Origin: Bacteroidota bacterium
GTDB lineage: Bacteria; Bacteroidota; Bacteroidia; AKYH767-A; JABDAW01
DNA length: 32,615 nt
Reading direction: 5' to 3'
NCBI GenBank assembly: GCA_013288905.1
Contig: JABDAW010000014.1
Span: forward strand, 1-32,615
Position numbers and translations under genes: made by a program. The first letter of the stretch is position 1, and the number at the start of each line of letters is the position of its first letter. Positions 3,633 through 26,649 of the stretch are shown in pieces. The notes beneath the pieces were generated by a model that was not told the origin of the DNA, did no database searches, and saw only the letters and a program-made list of their open reading frames with translations.

Positions 3633-6026
3633 ATGGAAACGAAAATTGATTTTAGTAAATTTAAAAACGAATCTTTCTTTCAAAAGTTGAAAGAGTTTGC
3701 TAGCAAGCCTCCCAAGAAAGATTTGGTGTATGTATTCTTTGGAGGTACTGGTGCTGTAGGCGGGCAGGCTGTAATTGAGATTATTCAAGCATTTGACTTT
3801 ATTGTTTCTGTTAATCCTTCTTGGATTGAAAGTAAACCACTTTTACTTGCGACTGGATTAAGCAAACCTGAAATAGATCGATTCAAAATGAAACTTGAAA
3901 AGGCTTTTGTTTCTGAAAATGGACATGGATTTGAGATGTTTGAAGGAGTTGATAATAGTGCAACCTTAACATTAAAAAGAAAATCAGGAATATCAATTGA
4001 ATTTCATGAATTGGTTGCAAAGCCTACATTTAGTATTGATTTAGTTGAGAAAATAAACGGTAAAAATAAGAATGAAATAAAGGAGTTTTTAAATTCATTA
4101 CCTTCAGTTATTAACTCACCTTTTGAATCGTTTTTGAAAAATTATATTGAAAGAAACAAATTTGATAGTGATTTTAGATTTCAAACTGTTATTTCTGGTA
4201 TCCCAATTCCCTCGGTAGCTGCATATAGTTTTGGAAGTGAAATTGATAAAATTCTCGTAAGTATAGGAGTGAAAAATAATGACCCCAATAAAGAAATCGA
4301 AAGGGCTATTAATGTAAAAATTTTACATGGATTCGCAAATGATTTCGGACAGATAAAAAACAATTTAGCTTATGAAGTGTTAATAGCTCACACTACTTCT
4401 GTAGGTGGTATGTACACTATTGCAGAAGAGGGAAAACCTGTAATTAATTTAGGATATGCACATAGTGCCATGGATGATTTCTTAGTTGAAAAGCAATTTT
4501 ATGCTGAAAATTTGACGGAAAAATATTCTGAACTTGGATTAAAAGTATTAATAACTGCTGCTGCTATTGGTATTGATTCTATTTCAATCAATGAAACATT
4601 GCCAATGAAAAAAAGTATCTTCAAGAAATATAAATCAGCTGAAATGAATGGAAATTTGCCTTATGATTCAAGTAATTTAGTTGAAGAATCAATTGCTATT
4701 TTTCAACCTAAATCTATTGCATTTACTAATAAAGAAAGTGGCATTGAAAATTCAGATAAGATAAATTTTGAGGCTTTTAATGCAGGAACTGTAAGACCTG
4801 AATTTGCTTTAAGAAGTGGTGAAAATGGAATGTTTTCCTTAGATAATGCTTATGCTCTCTATTTAAACATGAAAGTTGCATCCCAGGAAGAGTTGTCGCA
4901 TATTTTGGTATTTAATGCTTTGTTTGGAGATGATAAGCAACGCCCGTGGTTTGAAAATGGAATTTGTTATCAAACTGAAACAGAAAATGCAACTATTGTA
5001 TTTTCCTTGTTAAATAATTATCCTAAATTCAGAAAATATCAGACTTCAGGATTTACACCAAAAGCACTCCAGGATTTAGGTTCTGCTAAACATCAATGCG
5101 AATTGCATACAGTTGGGCTTTATATGCTTTTACATAAACTGAAATCATTAGATACTGATATTTTAATTGAAAAGGTAACTACTCATTACAGCGAAAACGA
5201 TGTATTAAAGTTTGTTGATAACTATACCCCACAACTAACTATTGAGAATATTATCGGATATGACCCTATACAAAAAGCAAAAGAATTTTCGACCTTAATA
5301 ACAATAAATTCATTAGATGAATTAATATCATTTTTTGGTTTTAATGGGGATATTAAAAATGATTTTATTAAAACCTTTTTAACTAACCTATTAAAGATAA
5401 TTAAGCAAACTATCTATACTATTACCTCTTTAGGAACTCCAATCGTTTATCTTGACAAAGAAGAAGTGAGGATTTTAATTGGACCATTTTGTGCAGCTAT
5501 TGAAGGAGCTGACAGCGGGGTAATAAGCCATAATAATTCTTTATTACAATATATTAAGGATAGTGCAAAAAAATCTAATCTTGATTTTAATAATTATTTT
5601 GAATGGGTTGTTGCTAACTCTGGTTTTATTGATTTGAGACCTCAAGCAACAATAACAACTGCAAAGAATTTAAAAACTGGGCTGAATGATAAAATTTGGA
5701 TTGTTCAAAAAGGTAATGACTTTCGAATCAGTATTAATTCAATTAAGAATGAGAATAACTTAAGTTCATCAAATGGTTATTTTACAAGCAGTGGAGTAGT
5801 TGCATTTATTGGGAGGATAACAGGACTTTACGAACAACTTAAAGATTTTGATATTTCACTAGGGACATTAAATAATTGGAAGGCATTATTTCCTATTGAT
5901 TCAAATGAACAACATCCTGTTATCCCAGGCTTAATTGAAGCTATGAGAATGTACACAGAGGGACTTGGAAAAGTTACAGGATTTGAATTACTTTATCCTG
6001 GATTTGGATATTTCCAAAATAAATAA
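3633..6026 (+). CDS. large hypothetical protein with N-terminal Rossmann-like motif
   Basis: The ORF track begins at 3576 inside the tRNA; the first sensible ATG is at 3633, giving 797 residues. I do not recognise the family. Residues 31-50 (LVYVFFGGTGAVGGQAVIEI) form a strand, glycine-rich loop (GGTGAVGG, 37-44) and helix typical of an NAD(P)-binding Rossmann fold. Later segments include LIAHTTSVGGMYTIAEEGKP and LKVLITAAAIGID, which again look like alternating strand and helix, then a long mostly helical C-terminal half with FCAAIEGADSGV. No signal peptide or membrane segment is evident, so it is probably cytoplasmic. It lies between tRNA-Phe (25 bp away) and pheT (21 bp away) on the same strand, suggesting co-transcription with pheT-pheS. 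An NAD(P)-dependent oxidoreductase or epimerase-like role is possible but unproven. Confidence 0.85.
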   Translation: METKIDFSKFKNESFFQKLKEFASKPPKKDLVYVFFGGTGAVGGQAVIEIIQAFDFIVSVNPSWIESKPLLLATGLSKPEIDRFKMKLEKAFVSENGHGFEMFEGVDNSATLTLKRKSGISIEFHELVAKPTFSIDLVEKINGKNKNEIKEFLNSLPSVINSPFESFLKNYIERNKFDSDFRFQTVISGIPIPSVAAYSFGSEIDKILVSIGVKNNDPNKEIERAINVKILHGFANDFGQIKNNLAYEVLIAHTTSVGGMYTIAEEGKPVINLGYAHSAMDDFLVEKQFYAENLTEKYSELGLKVLITAAAIGIDSISINETLPMKKSIFKKYKSAEMNGNLPYDSSNLVEESIAIFQPKSIAFTNKESGIENSDKINFEAFNAGTVRPEFALRSGENGMFSLDNAYALYLNMKVASQEELSHILVFNALFGDDKQRPWFENGICYQTETENATIVFSLLNNYPKFRKYQTSGFTPKALQDLGSAKHQCELHTVGLYMLLHKLKSLDTDILIEKVTTHYSENDVLKFVDNYTPQLTIENIIGYDPIQKAKEFSTLITINSLDELISFFGFNGDIKNDFIKTFLTNLLKIIKQTIYTITSLGTPIVYLDKEEVRILIGPFCAAIEGADSGVISHNNSLLQYIKDSAKKSNLDFNNYFEWVVANSGFIDLRPQATITTAKNLKTGLNDKIWIVQKGNDFRISINSIKNENNLSSSNGYFTSSGVVAFIGRITGLYEQLKDFDISLGTLNNWKALFPIDSNEQHPVIPGLIEAMRMYTEGLGKVTGFELLYPGFGYFQNK

Positions 6027-12059: not shown

Positions 12060-12184
12060 TTTTCTCCGTGTATCTCTGTACCACCTCTGTGCACCTCTGT
12101 GTAATTTTTTTCCTTTTTAATCAATGAATCTGTGGCTAAAAAAATCATATTTTGTCCCTGTTTTCAGCGTCATCTGCGTTCTTA
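12060..12184. repeat. cluster of short repeat motifs of a widespread type
   Basis: Four near-tandem copies of a 10-11 bp motif of the type CCTCTGTGTA lie at about 12064-12103 (CTCCGTGTAT, CTCTGTACCA, CCTCTGTGCA, CCTCTGTGTAA). AATCTGTGGCTAAA follows at about 12126, then CAGCGTCATCTGCGTTC at about 12165-12181. From memory, motifs like these recur in intergenic DNA of many environmental bacteria and give spurious ORFs such as the one at 11774-12148 here. The last motif resembles the arm of the inverted repeat at 23348-23408. It lies between the plus-strand and minus-strand terminators. Confidence 0.55.
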
Positions 12185-12200
12185 TTGTCCCATTCCCCAA

Positions 12201-22228: not shown

Positions 22229-22480
22229 TCCCCAAGGTTGAGGCGTCATTATCCAAGGATGGGGAATCATTCGCCAAGGCTTGGGAATCGCTATCCAAGG
22301 GTGGGGAATCGTTTGCCAAGGTTAGAAAATCATTCCCCAAAGTTGGGGAGTCGTTGCCCAAGGTTGGGGAGTCGTTGCCCAAGGTTGGGGAGTCATTCCC
22401 CAAGGCTGGGGAGCAGCTATCCAAGATTGGGGAATCGTTTACCAAGGCTGGAGAGTCGTTGTCCAAGGTTGGGGAATGAC
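22229..22480. repeat. 12 x 21-bp tandem array framed by a 10-bp inverted repeat
   Basis: Twelve head-to-tail units of exactly 21 bp, consensus about TNNCCAAGGTTGGGGAATCGT. The core CCAAGGTTGGGGA is well kept and the first three bases vary. No unit gains or loses a base. AAAAACAAGT (22216-22225) on the left and ACTTGTTTTT (22479-22488) on the right are perfect inverted repeats that frame the array. Both strands stay open across it (ORFs 22200-22502 and 22238-22537), as expected for a period divisible by three; neither looks like a gene. Confidence 0.93.
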
Positions 22481-23274: not shown

Positions 23275-23301
23275 AGCCCTTCGATTCACCATCGAAGGGC
23301 T
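23275..23301 (+). terminator. hairpin terminator
   Basis: Perfect 11-bp stem AGCCCTTCGAT / ATCGAAGGGCT with a 5-base loop, followed by TTCTGTTTGTT. It lies 27 bp after the 213-residue gene. The T-run is interrupted, so efficiency is uncertain. Confidence 0.75.
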
Positions 23302-23347
23302 TTCTGTTTGTTATCAGATAGGGAATATTTTCCAAACAAGCAGCAAT

Positions 23348-23408
23348 AGGAACGCGTATGACGCAGAAAAATAGGTCTAATCTATTTTTCTGCGTCATAC
23401 GCGTTCCT
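23348..23408. repeat. perfect 27-bp inverted repeat, 7-base loop
   Basis: The left arm 23348-23374 begins AGGAACGCGTATGACGC and the right arm 23382-23408 is its exact reverse complement; the loop is GTCTAAT. It lies between the terminator of the 213-residue gene and the stop of the converging SBBP gene. The GAACGC..ATGACGC..AAAA pattern of the arm resembles a single motif on the minus strand at about 12165-12181. Confidence 0.95.
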
Positions 23409-23423
23409 GTTTTCCCAAGAACT

Positions 23424-26237
23424 CTATTTTATGATCACCACTTTTCCTTTTTCAATGACGCTTTCATAAATAGCAGAGCCATCATTCGAAACTATTTCCC
23501 AGAAATAAATGCCATTGCTTAGTGGAAACGTGATGGTTTCTTCTCTTTTGGAATCCTTGAAACTTTTGGAATAAAGCAATCTTCCGAATGCATCATTTAT
23601 TCGAAGATCGTAATTCGCAGTACCTGATTGACGAAGGATAAAAGTTCCATTATTGGGATTGGGGTATAGCAGGGGTATAGAATTTTGAGTTTCTATTTCA
23701 TTGATTCCATTCCGAATTACTGTTACACAAACGGTATCTGAAACGCCTTTGCATCCATTGGAATCTGTTACCATCAATGAATAACATCCGATGAAAGGTG
23801 CATTATAAAAAAAGTTGGTGGCACCTGCAATGGCAGTATCATTCAGCAGCCATTGATTATTGACAGGGGAGCTTGAAACCAACAAACTTCCATTATGAAT
23901 AATAGTCGGCACAATCGGAGTATCAACCACCACAATTGTAGCAGCAGAAGCATTGCTGCATCCGTTGGTATCTGTAATAGTCACCTGGAAATTGCCTGAA
24001 GTATCCGTATAAATCACTTGAGTGGAAGCTCCCGTATTCCAAAGATAGCTTGAACAATTGCTTGAGGATAAAGCGATGCTGTCTCCTAGACAAATAATTA
24101 CAGAACCGCCAGGAGTGATGATGGGAATGGGCAAGGCATTGACTGTAAGGATTGTAATAATTGTACTGTCGCAGGCATGAATCGTAGTAAGATGACTAGT
24201 CTGGATGGTATCATGAAGGGCAGTATAATCAGAGCCATTTGGGAAGGTAAAGATGCTGCCATGACAGATGGATGCGGCAACATTTTGATTGTAAACCGGA
24301 TGGACAGTGAGGGAGGTAATGATAGTACTGTCACAGAATTTTGTGGTCATCAAATGACTGGTTTGAATGGTATCCGAAATTGCCGTAATCGAAGTGCTGT
24401 CAGGGAACGTATAGACATGCCCATAGCAGATGGAAGTTGCGATATTTTGTGAATAAACCGGATTAACAGTGAGCACCGTGACGATGGTACTGTCACAGGT
24501 ATTTGTCGCAATCAAATGACTTGAATGAATCATTGAAACCGTGCCAATAGTGCTATCTGCGAATAGGAAAGTATCTCCCTGGCAAATGCTTATTGTATCA
24601 TGAAAAGAAGTTTGAATAAAGTCAATGGTTATTGTTGAAGATGCCGTGCATCCGCCTGTTCCAGGTATGATCACAGAATAAACTCCTGAAGAATTTACAG
24701 TTATACTTTGATTGGTGCTGCCGGTATTCCAATGGAAGGAAGCAGCAGTATCTGATGTCAGAGTAACAGGATTCCCCTGGCAGAAAATGGTTGTCGAGGG
24801 GGTAATGACGGGAGGAGTAACATAGCACATCTTTAATTTCGCAATAAACACATCATCAAATCCTGCATAAGCATTGACAAGATTGGTAACGCCAAATAGA
24901 ATGGAGTCACTTTCAAATAAACCCGTCAAATAAAGATTTCCGAATGCATCTGCGGTAATGCAAGATGCAAAATCATAATTTGTTCCTCCTGCGCTAATTG
25001 CCCAAAGAGGATTTCCATTCGGATCAATTTTAACAACAAAAATATCTGCCGAATCAGTGCTGTTTTGAGATGTATTCGTTAAAACAATATTGCCAAAGGA
25101 TATTGAATCACTATCGAAAAATCCTGTGACATAACTATTGCCCGCGGTGTCAGTAATTATTGACCAGGGTTCATCATCTTTAAGCCCACCGGATGATAAA
25201 GCCCAGATTGCATTACCATCAGCATCATATTTGGCAATGAAAATATCAGGATAAATTGTAGTGCCTGATTTTATTAAAGTATCAGGTCCGAGCACTACCG
25301 TATCACTGCCAAATTCTCCCGCTACATAAATATAGCCATGTGCATCACTTGAAATGGATTGTATTCCTGCACTGCGTGTTCCACCTGCATTTCTCGCCCA
25401 TATCAAATTACCATTTTCATCATATTTGGTAATAAATAGATTAAAAATACCTTCATTAATCAATGTATCTCCATCGAAGATGAGAGAGGTAGATTGAAAC
25501 GATCCGGCATCATAAATATATCCTGCAATATCTATCGTAACCGCAATTGTTTGGTCAAATTCACCTGTACCTGTTGCGGTTTTTGCCCACAACACGTTTC
25601 CGCTTGAATCATATTTTACAAGAAAGGGACTGTAAGCCCCGGTATTTGGAAGAACAATGGTATCAAAAGTGATATTGGGATAAGAAAAACTTCCCCCGAC
25701 ATAAATATTTCCAAAAGCGTCAGTTACGGCAGAAGAGGGACCATCTATATTTGCACCTCCTGCCCCCTTCGCCCAGAGCACATTACCATTAACATCAAAT
25801 TTGGCAATAAAAACATCAGAACCTCCGGCATTCGTTAACGTATAGGCACCAAACGTGATGCTATAGTTTTCATATTCCCCCACCATGTATAGATTTCCAG
25901 TAATATCAAATGTCAGAAATCGTGCACCATCATTACCATCTGTTCCAAAACTTTTTGCCCAAACGACATTTCCCAATGTATCATATTTGACCAGGAAAAT
26001 ATCTGTATTTCCCTGGCTGGGCAATGAAAAGGAACCAAAAGTAATAGTGTAATGAAAAGAACCTGCAACATAGATATTTCCTGAAACATCTGTTGCAATC
26101 GCATTTCCCACATCGGAGTTGGTATCACCTGCCCTCGCTGCCCAAACCCATTCAGGAACTTGAGCTTTCGTAGTCGAATAAAATAATGTGAACTGAATAA
26201 TCAATCCGAATATCGGGAGAAGGTAATTTTTTTTCAT
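23424..26237 (-). CDS. secreted SBBP beta-propeller protein with T9SS sorting domain
   Basis: A 937-residue exported protein. The signal peptide runs to about STTKA, cut before QVPEW. Residues about 27-470 hold seven repeats of about 60-65 residues (GNVLWAKGAGGANIDG...DAFGNIYVGGSF...DVFIAKFD), the SBBP pattern, predicted to close a seven-bladed propeller. Then an Ig-like module (FCQGNPVTLTSDTAASFHW), three copies of the roughly 50-residue repeat also found in the Kelch protein (SICYGHVYTFPDS...TSHLMTTKFCDSTIITSLTV), further Ig-like modules, and a C-terminal sorting domain (LLYPNPNNGTFILRQ...NGIYFWEIVSNDG). The T9SS carries it across the outer membrane. The shared repeats and tail indicate common ancestry with the 18171-20477 protein, with the propeller exchanged. 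Ligand unknown. Confidence 0.93.
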   Translation of the reverse strand: MKKNYLLPIFGLIIQFTLFYSTTKAQVPEWVWAARAGDTNSDVGNAIATDVSGNIYVAGSFHYTITFGSFSLPSQGNTDIFLVKYDTLGNVVWAKSFGTDGNDGARFLTFDITGNLYMVGEYENYSITFGAYTLTNAGGSDVFIAKFDVNGNVLWAKGAGGANIDGPSSAVTDAFGNIYVGGSFSYPNITFDTIVLPNTGAYSPFLVKYDSSGNVLWAKTATGTGEFDQTIAVTIDIAGYIYDAGSFQSTSLIFDGDTLINEGIFNLFITKYDENGNLIWARNAGGTRSAGIQSISSDAHGYIYVAGEFGSDTVVLGPDTLIKSGTTIYPDIFIAKYDADGNAIWALSSGGLKDDEPWSIITDTAGNSYVTGFFDSDSISFGNIVLTNTSQNSTDSADIFVVKIDPNGNPLWAISAGGTNYDFASCITADAFGNLYLTGLFESDSILFGVTNLVNAYAGFDDVFIAKLKMCYVTPPVITPSTTIFCQGNPVTLTSDTAASFHWNTGSTNQSITVNSSGVYSVIIPGTGGCTASSTITIDFIQTSFHDTISICQGDTFLFADSTIGTVSMIHSSHLIATNTCDSTIVTVLTVNPVYSQNIATSICYGHVYTFPDSTSITAISDTIQTSHLMTTKFCDSTIITSLTVHPVYNQNVAASICHGSIFTFPNGSDYTALHDTIQTSHLTTIHACDSTIITILTVNALPIPIITPGGSVIICLGDSIALSSSNCSSYLWNTGASTQVIYTDTSGNFQVTITDTNGCSNASAATIVVVDTPIVPTIIHNGSLLVSSSPVNNQWLLNDTAIAGATNFFYNAPFIGCYSLMVTDSNGCKGVSDTVCVTVIRNGINEIETQNSIPLLYPNPNNGTFILRQSGTANYDLRINDAFGRLLYSKSFKDSKREETITFPLSNGIYFWEIVSNDGSAIYESVIEKGKVVIIK

Positions 26238-26439: not shown

Positions 26440-26649
26440 CTCCTCTTAATTGATAATCCAAGGAGGTCAATTGATATTAGAAGAAGGTTAATTTATATTA
26501 TAAGGAGGTTAATTGATAATGCGAGGAGGTTAATTGATATTATAAGGAGGCTAATTGATAATGTGAGAAGGTTAATTGATAATGTGAGAAGGTTAATTGA
26601 TAATGTGTGAAGGTTAATTGATATTGGGAGGGGAATAATCTCTATTGGG
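26440..26649. repeat. ~10 x 21-bp tandem array with an inverted partial copy
   Basis: Consecutive 21-bp units with consensus AGGAGGTTAATTGATAATGTG; eight good copies run from 26461 to 26628 and degraded units lie at each end. Just left, ATTAACCTCCT (26434-26444) is the exact reverse complement of AGGAGGTTAAT, so it can form a hairpin with the units. It lies in the 532-bp gap between the SBBP gene and parE. The rest of the gap (26650-26769) shows nothing recognised. Confidence 0.93.

Follow-up and report, generated by a model that had tools for sequence, protein, structure and literature searches.

A perfect 27-bp palindrome in a Bacteroidota genome as a probable gene-less relative of GxxExxY-nuclease elements

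What kind of element is a long, perfectly matched hairpin between two genes of a Bacteroidota bacterium, and which enzyme, if any, is responsible for its presence? The hairpin lies in a stretch of 32,615 nucleotides, hereafter the window, whose relevant features are given in Table 1. The initial annotation of the window proposed that it belongs to a REP-like repeat family, with single and palindromic forms, that is moved by a REP-associated (Y1) transposase encoded elsewhere.

The 27 bp of perfect pairing and the seven-base loop are confirmed. When one mismatch is allowed, the arms extend to 30 nt (23345–23374 and 23382–23411, 97% identity). The stem was rightly called unusual: the next perfect stem of the window has only 11 bp (that at 23275–23301), and the longest perfect stems in Markov-1 resampled windows (n = 10) have 8–10 bp. 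The hairpin folded as RNA has an energy of −51.3 kcal/mol (z = −14). The description of the site as lying between converging genes and not being a plain terminator is a fair one: the terminator scan flags a T-rich tail at the big hairpin, which is weak (TGTTTT) and present on one side only, and a better, conventional terminator adjoins it between the same two genes. The window also contains intergenic arrays of 21-bp tandem units (22229–22477 and 26446–26630), the unit sequences of which differ; arrays of similar period and other sequences were seen by eye on contigs C42, C91 and C17 (L077, L082 and L072).

Table 1. Features of the window referred to in the text (positions are those of the window)
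Feature	Position	Strand	Remarks
Left arm of the perfect hairpin	23348..23374	+	core GGAACGCGTATGACGCAGAAAAATAG; imperfect extension from 23345
Loop, 7 bases	23375..23381	.	GTCTAAT
Right arm of the hairpin	23382..23408	-	reverse complement of the left arm; imperfect extension to 23411
Outer module TTTCCCAAGAACTCTA	23411..23426	+	TTTCCGAAGAAGTCTA with 2 mismatches; overlaps the stop codon of the minus-strand gene
Upstream converging ORF, 213 aa	22607..23248	+	no Pfam match
Downstream converging ORF, 937 aa	23424..26237	-	SBBP beta-propeller repeat and T9SS sorting domain
Ordinary terminator-like stem-loop, 11 bp, loop 5	23275..23301	.	T-rich tail; between the same converging genes
Single arm of the window-hairpin family (GAACGCAGATGACGCTGAAAACAGGGACAAAATATGATTTTT)	12139..12186	-	pattern match
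Single arm similar to the class-A (CACAGAGG) inverted-repeat type, that of a different GxxExxY nuclease clade	12064..12104	-	by inspection, unscored

The arm of the hairpin is a member of a repeat family. The genome is a 2.64 Mb bin, 58.7% complete, and copies were counted by pattern searches. Since contigs C35, C76 and C100 have arms less than 100 bp from an end, the copy numbers may be undercounts. The arm pattern with at most one mismatch has 31 matches in the genome and none with the reversed control (46 versus 13 for a looser pattern with two mismatches), which disposes of the idea of an isolated hairpin. In the window itself, three matches were observed versus zero expected, and the resemblance noted to a minus-strand motif at 12165–12181 is real.

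The expectation that single and palindromic forms coexist is borne out, and there are tandem copies as well: single arms are found on C19, on C31 and at position 12166 of the window, tandem arms on C50, C57 and C1, and 12–13 inverted pairs occur in the genome. In these pairs GAACGC is outermost except at one variant end, and the ends read GGAACGC/GCGTTCC with a sole exception, which begins AACAC. Eleven inverted pairs are 92–100 nt long, that of C87 has 90 nt and is variant at one end, and the shortest, with 59 nt, is that of the window. Whereas the window hairpin has a convergent site, other copies, mostly intergenic, occur in tandem and divergent intergenic regions according to a rough ORF call. 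The solo elements contain no gene and have cores of 59–100 bp, well under 600 bp, as in MITEs. The two arms of an element resemble each other more than they resemble those of other elements (identity of 0.947 within versus 0.876 between 11 elements, permutation P = 5e-5). Both arms of the window hairpin carry an identical departure from the family, CGCGTATGACGC in place of CGCAGATGACGC.

Next to the end of an rRNA operon, just past the 5S gene, a pair of adjacent single arms on the same strand represents different classes (12064–12186 of the window). Other sequences surround the palindromes. The outer module TTTCCGAAGAAGTCTA flanks several sister palindromes of the window hairpin, and at L070 (C6), L071 (C11), L072 (C17), L073 (C26) and L074 (C8) a module TAGACTTCTTCGGAAAATAG...CTATTTTCCGAAGAAGTCTA encloses palindromes whose arms belong to several families (GCAGATT, CACAGATT and CACGGATT); on C26, this module forms a palindrome by itself. 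An outer TAGACTTCTTCGG...CCGAAGAAGTCTA module gave the idea that the elements insert into pre-existing palindromes. This idea was rejected: the inverted score of an element's own flanks (16.0) equals that of flanks taken from different elements (16.3), and the outer module therefore gives no element-specific signal.

The suspicion that genes of the GxxExxY family are often flanked by such repeats was put to the test. The genome has two PF13366 genes, both of which match TIGR04256 (GxxExxY protein, a name that NCBI took from the motif only), and each lies within inverted arms. The gene on C160 is located between GGAACGCAGATAAAAATGATTGCTTATGAAAAGATATGAT and inverted copies of near-identical sequence. 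Its arms, GGAACGC(A/T)GATAAAAATGATTG.TTATGA.AAGATATGAT, depart from those of the solo palindromes mostly across one short stretch, so that, as in MITEs, the solos and a gene-bearing element of the same genome have their inverted repeats in common. The gene on C23 is enclosed by a second type of long inverted repeat (CACAAAGGGTGCACAAAG). Solo palindromes of the second family (CACAAAGGGCACAAAG-type), the nuclease gene of which is on C23, are present at L144 (G000:C23 15015–15102) and at G000:C193 699–786.

The same arrangement is found in other genomes. PF13366 is present in 25 of the 42 genomes of the order. Inverted flanks, defined by a score of at least 28, occur at 43 of the 55 nuclease loci of the order with enough flanking sequence, compared to 0 of 102 controls in which the positions were shifted along the same loci. 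Similarly, 52 of 75 loci of clade-B-relative nucleases in public genomes have inverted flanks (0 of 269 shifted controls), and the other 23 have no clear ones by this score. These public loci span Bacteroidota, Ignavibacteria, Chloroflexi, Cloacimonadota, Nitrospinia, Desulfobacteraceae and others. Since one side of a locus often holds more than one arm, 31 of the 75 loci reach the threshold with direct repeats as well. The clade-B arms start with AATRGAACRCNGATNACRCNGAT, which matches the start of the window arm; the best match of the latter is GGAACGCGGATAACGCAGAAAAA, in an arm of the nuclease locus L210. The complete element would have a single GxxExxY (PF13366) nuclease gene between two inverted copies of a repeat of about 40 bp.

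The type of arm goes with the type of nuclease. Clade A (LGPGLLE) is found with CACAGAG/GCAAAG-type arms, clade B (GYGFLEKVYE) with GAACRCNGAT arms and clade C (GNGFQE) with GTCTGAA arms: 36 of the 37 classifiable loci agree (18 A–A, 7 B–B, 11 C–C and one off the diagonal), the others being unclassified on one or both sides. Since the arm classes were named after some of the loci had been viewed, a class-free test was also run. In Mantel tests, the similarity of the nucleases correlates with that of the arms (r = 0.30, P = 5e-4), compared to r = 0.06 (P = 0.04) for the DNA located 400–570 bp upstream.

The association is also strong across whole genomes. Among 395 genomes of the class, the degenerate arm is present in 30 of 38 genomes with a clade-B nuclease, versus 49 of 357 without (odds ratio 24; Fisher P = 9e-17, a value that treats related genomes as independent), with 527 arms in total and 2 for the reversed control. 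Among the 37 genomes with at least five arms, 18 have no detected clade-B nuclease; their solo palindromes may have outlived the nuclease, may be moved by another one, or the gene may fall in an assembly gap.

The structure model of the nuclease has a pLDDT of 91. The residues E33, D72, E82, K84, Q96 and Y100 (E..D..ExK..QxxxY) are invariant in alignments of 24 and 38 members. A search of the PDB by sequence gave no match; the best folds are those of SSO0001 (a Cas4 protein) and LHK-Exo, both weak matches (E about 4e-4, TM 0.4–0.6). The modelled fold of this PD-(D/E)XK nuclease is nearest to Cas4 and lambda-type exonucleases.

As regards mobility, no arm (one mismatch allowed) and no PF13366 gene was found in G001 and G002, two genomes of the same genus that are 97–98% complete. 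The empty-site comparison covered three other copies, those of C5 and C20 and the nuclease element of C160: at each, one or both of these genomes keep the flanking genes and lack the element. The ends of the nuclease elements at 45 loci show no excess of direct repeats that would indicate a target-site duplication (mean longest shared word of 5.62 bp for own ends and 5.56 bp across elements), and the footprint of a conventional DDE-type transposition is therefore missing. Among the solo elements, the one clear, isolated candidate is the 13-bp direct repeat AACACTGCTTTTC, which flanks the C29 element together with its outer module (L024, G000:C29 ~3860–4030); weaker look-alikes were seen by inspection at C5 and C9.

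The hairpin is probably a solo, gene-less, MITE/REPIN-like palindrome of a GxxExxY-nuclease element, a reading to which we give a probability of roughly 0.72. From the association of arm and gene we infer that the nuclease mobilises the palindrome. The nuclease would recognise the repeat, which may then be folded into a single-stranded DNA hairpin, and process the ends of its own repeats, and copying would be completed by host replication or repair. Solo palindromes that have lost the gene would move in trans. Copying as a folded unit, or correction by template switching, would explain why both arms of the window hairpin have the same departure from the family.

The mover proposed in the initial annotation was a RAYT, a Y1 HuH transposase acting on REPs and REPINs. 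The layout of the family, with inverted doublets, singlets and clusters, is indeed REPIN-like, and the lack of a general target-site duplication is what is expected of Y1 movement. The genome contains Y1 genes or relics, but its PF01797 matches are fragments or frame-broken, and the only one adjacent to an arm is the relic on C128, which has an arm about 130 bp downstream. The search, which covered PF01797 in this genome and twelve relatives and the C128-like fragment in the 395 genomes, leads to the rejection of a RAYT as the main explanation: the arm is absent from all 28 Y1 loci of the twelve relatives (1.7–3.4 kb per locus), it does not end with a GTAG or CGTC tag, and it follows the nuclease much more strongly, with an odds ratio of about 20 within Y1-positive and Y1-negative genomes alike. 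The presence of Y1 is weakly associated with that of the arm (34% versus 14% of genomes, a comparison against all other genomes which is not a clean one); a weak association remains among the genomes without a clade-B nuclease (the arm is found in 24 of the 102 that have Y1 and in 25 of the 255 that lack it). A scan of the 28 loci and others of the class showed inverted repeats at many Y1 loci, usually of a different type, e.g., CCACGACCTTTAGGTCGTGG, and none at others. Movement by a RAYT is thus quite unlikely. Many Y1 genes of the class (L128, L132, L136, L139 and others) are flanked by inverted repeats, several of which have a CTTTAG/CTGAAG-like core; these are apparently a separate REP type. 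On C128 (G000:C128 4783–6442), the Y1 remnant comes directly after a 454-aa transposase-like ORF, which suggests that an insertion sequence may have disrupted the Y1 gene.

The chief rival is that the nuclease gene is only the passenger cargo of an inverted-repeat element moved by some other transposase encoded elsewhere. A nuclease by itself is seldom enough for transposition, a catalytic role of this one is putative, and solo palindromes persist where no clade-B nuclease is seen. However, a passenger is not expected to have an arm class that follows its clade, as is the case in at least three classes, and no gene other than the nuclease was seen inside the repeats at those loci that were inspected; this explanation seems unlikely. 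Selection of the hairpin by the host, as a bidirectional terminator or an mRNA 3' stabiliser, would agree with the very stable fold, the convergent-gene site and the intergenic position of the copies. It is highly unlikely, given the ordinary terminator already present at 23275–23301, the other copies in tandem and divergent intergenic regions (rough ORF call), the lineage-specific presence of the family and the empty sites that correspond to other copies in the same genus. Nothing but the perfection of the hairpin speaks for an origin without any family, by chance or by a local inversion duplication, and this reading is already refuted by the dozens of family members and by control windows whose stems do not exceed 10 bp.

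The GxxExxY-nuclease element resembles several known systems. REPIN/RAYT systems have short repeats in inverted doublets, singlets and clusters, linked to the gene of a cognate enzyme (Bertels and Rainey 2011, PMC3116915). Intergenic doublets, singlets and clusters, an enzyme gene next to its own type of repeat, and the matching of repeat and enzyme types are common to both, but here the enzyme is a PD-(D/E)XK nuclease instead of a Y1 HuH transposase, the GTAG tag is absent, the arms have internal repeats of about 10 bp (ACGCAGATG ACGCAGATT) and the gene is inside the inverted arms. Likewise, the TIRtrons (TIR-associated tyrosine transposases; Di Nocera 2013, PMC3733652) have just one small gene, for an enzyme, and it is flanked by long inverted repeats that are also found as solo dimers and clusters; their enzyme is a Y1 transposase, whereas that described here is Cas4/lambda-exonuclease-like. 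The CGTC-tagged REPs (PMC3733652) are palindromic, are reported from Bacteroidetes as well and have no known dedicated transposase, but they have stems of 8–9 bp, loops of 4–5 bases and CGTC at the terminus, whereas the stems are 27 to about 45 bp long and GCGTCA is internal in the family studied here. The MITEs of DDE transposons are likewise short, gene-less, inverted-repeat relatives of a gene-bearing element in the same genome; unlike them, the present palindromes have no general target-site duplication, and no DDE transposase was identified with the elements. Finally, Rpn/transposase_31 proteins (PMC5350276) are PD-(D/E)XK nucleases tied to recombination and horizontal transfer, but they are set apart by their assignment to another Pfam family (PF04754).

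In the literature searched, which had preprints and most subscription papers outside its reach, no description of the association between arms and GxxExxY genes was found, nor any mention of PDDEXK_3 or TIGR04256; GxxExxY occurs in two papers, one of which (PMC8934634) names it once and incidentally, and PF13366 in a third. At a more general level, it is at even odds that a widespread class of bacterial mobile elements has GxxExxY proteins as its only enzymes. Such elements would spread by means of a Cas4/lambda-exonuclease-like nuclease and encode neither a transposase nor an integrase, and their gene-less palindromes would account for some of the REP-like repeats that lack an explanation in Bacteroidota and other phyla.

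The pairing of nuclease and arm is directly testable, because the arm class follows the nuclease clade. These observations provide a candidate role for a widespread nuclease family that has no functional name, and connect a class of palindromic repeats with a candidate enzyme. If this is confirmed, the system would be REPIN-like in layout, with an unrelated nuclease fold as its basis, and would bear on how bacterial palindromes arise and stay perfect.
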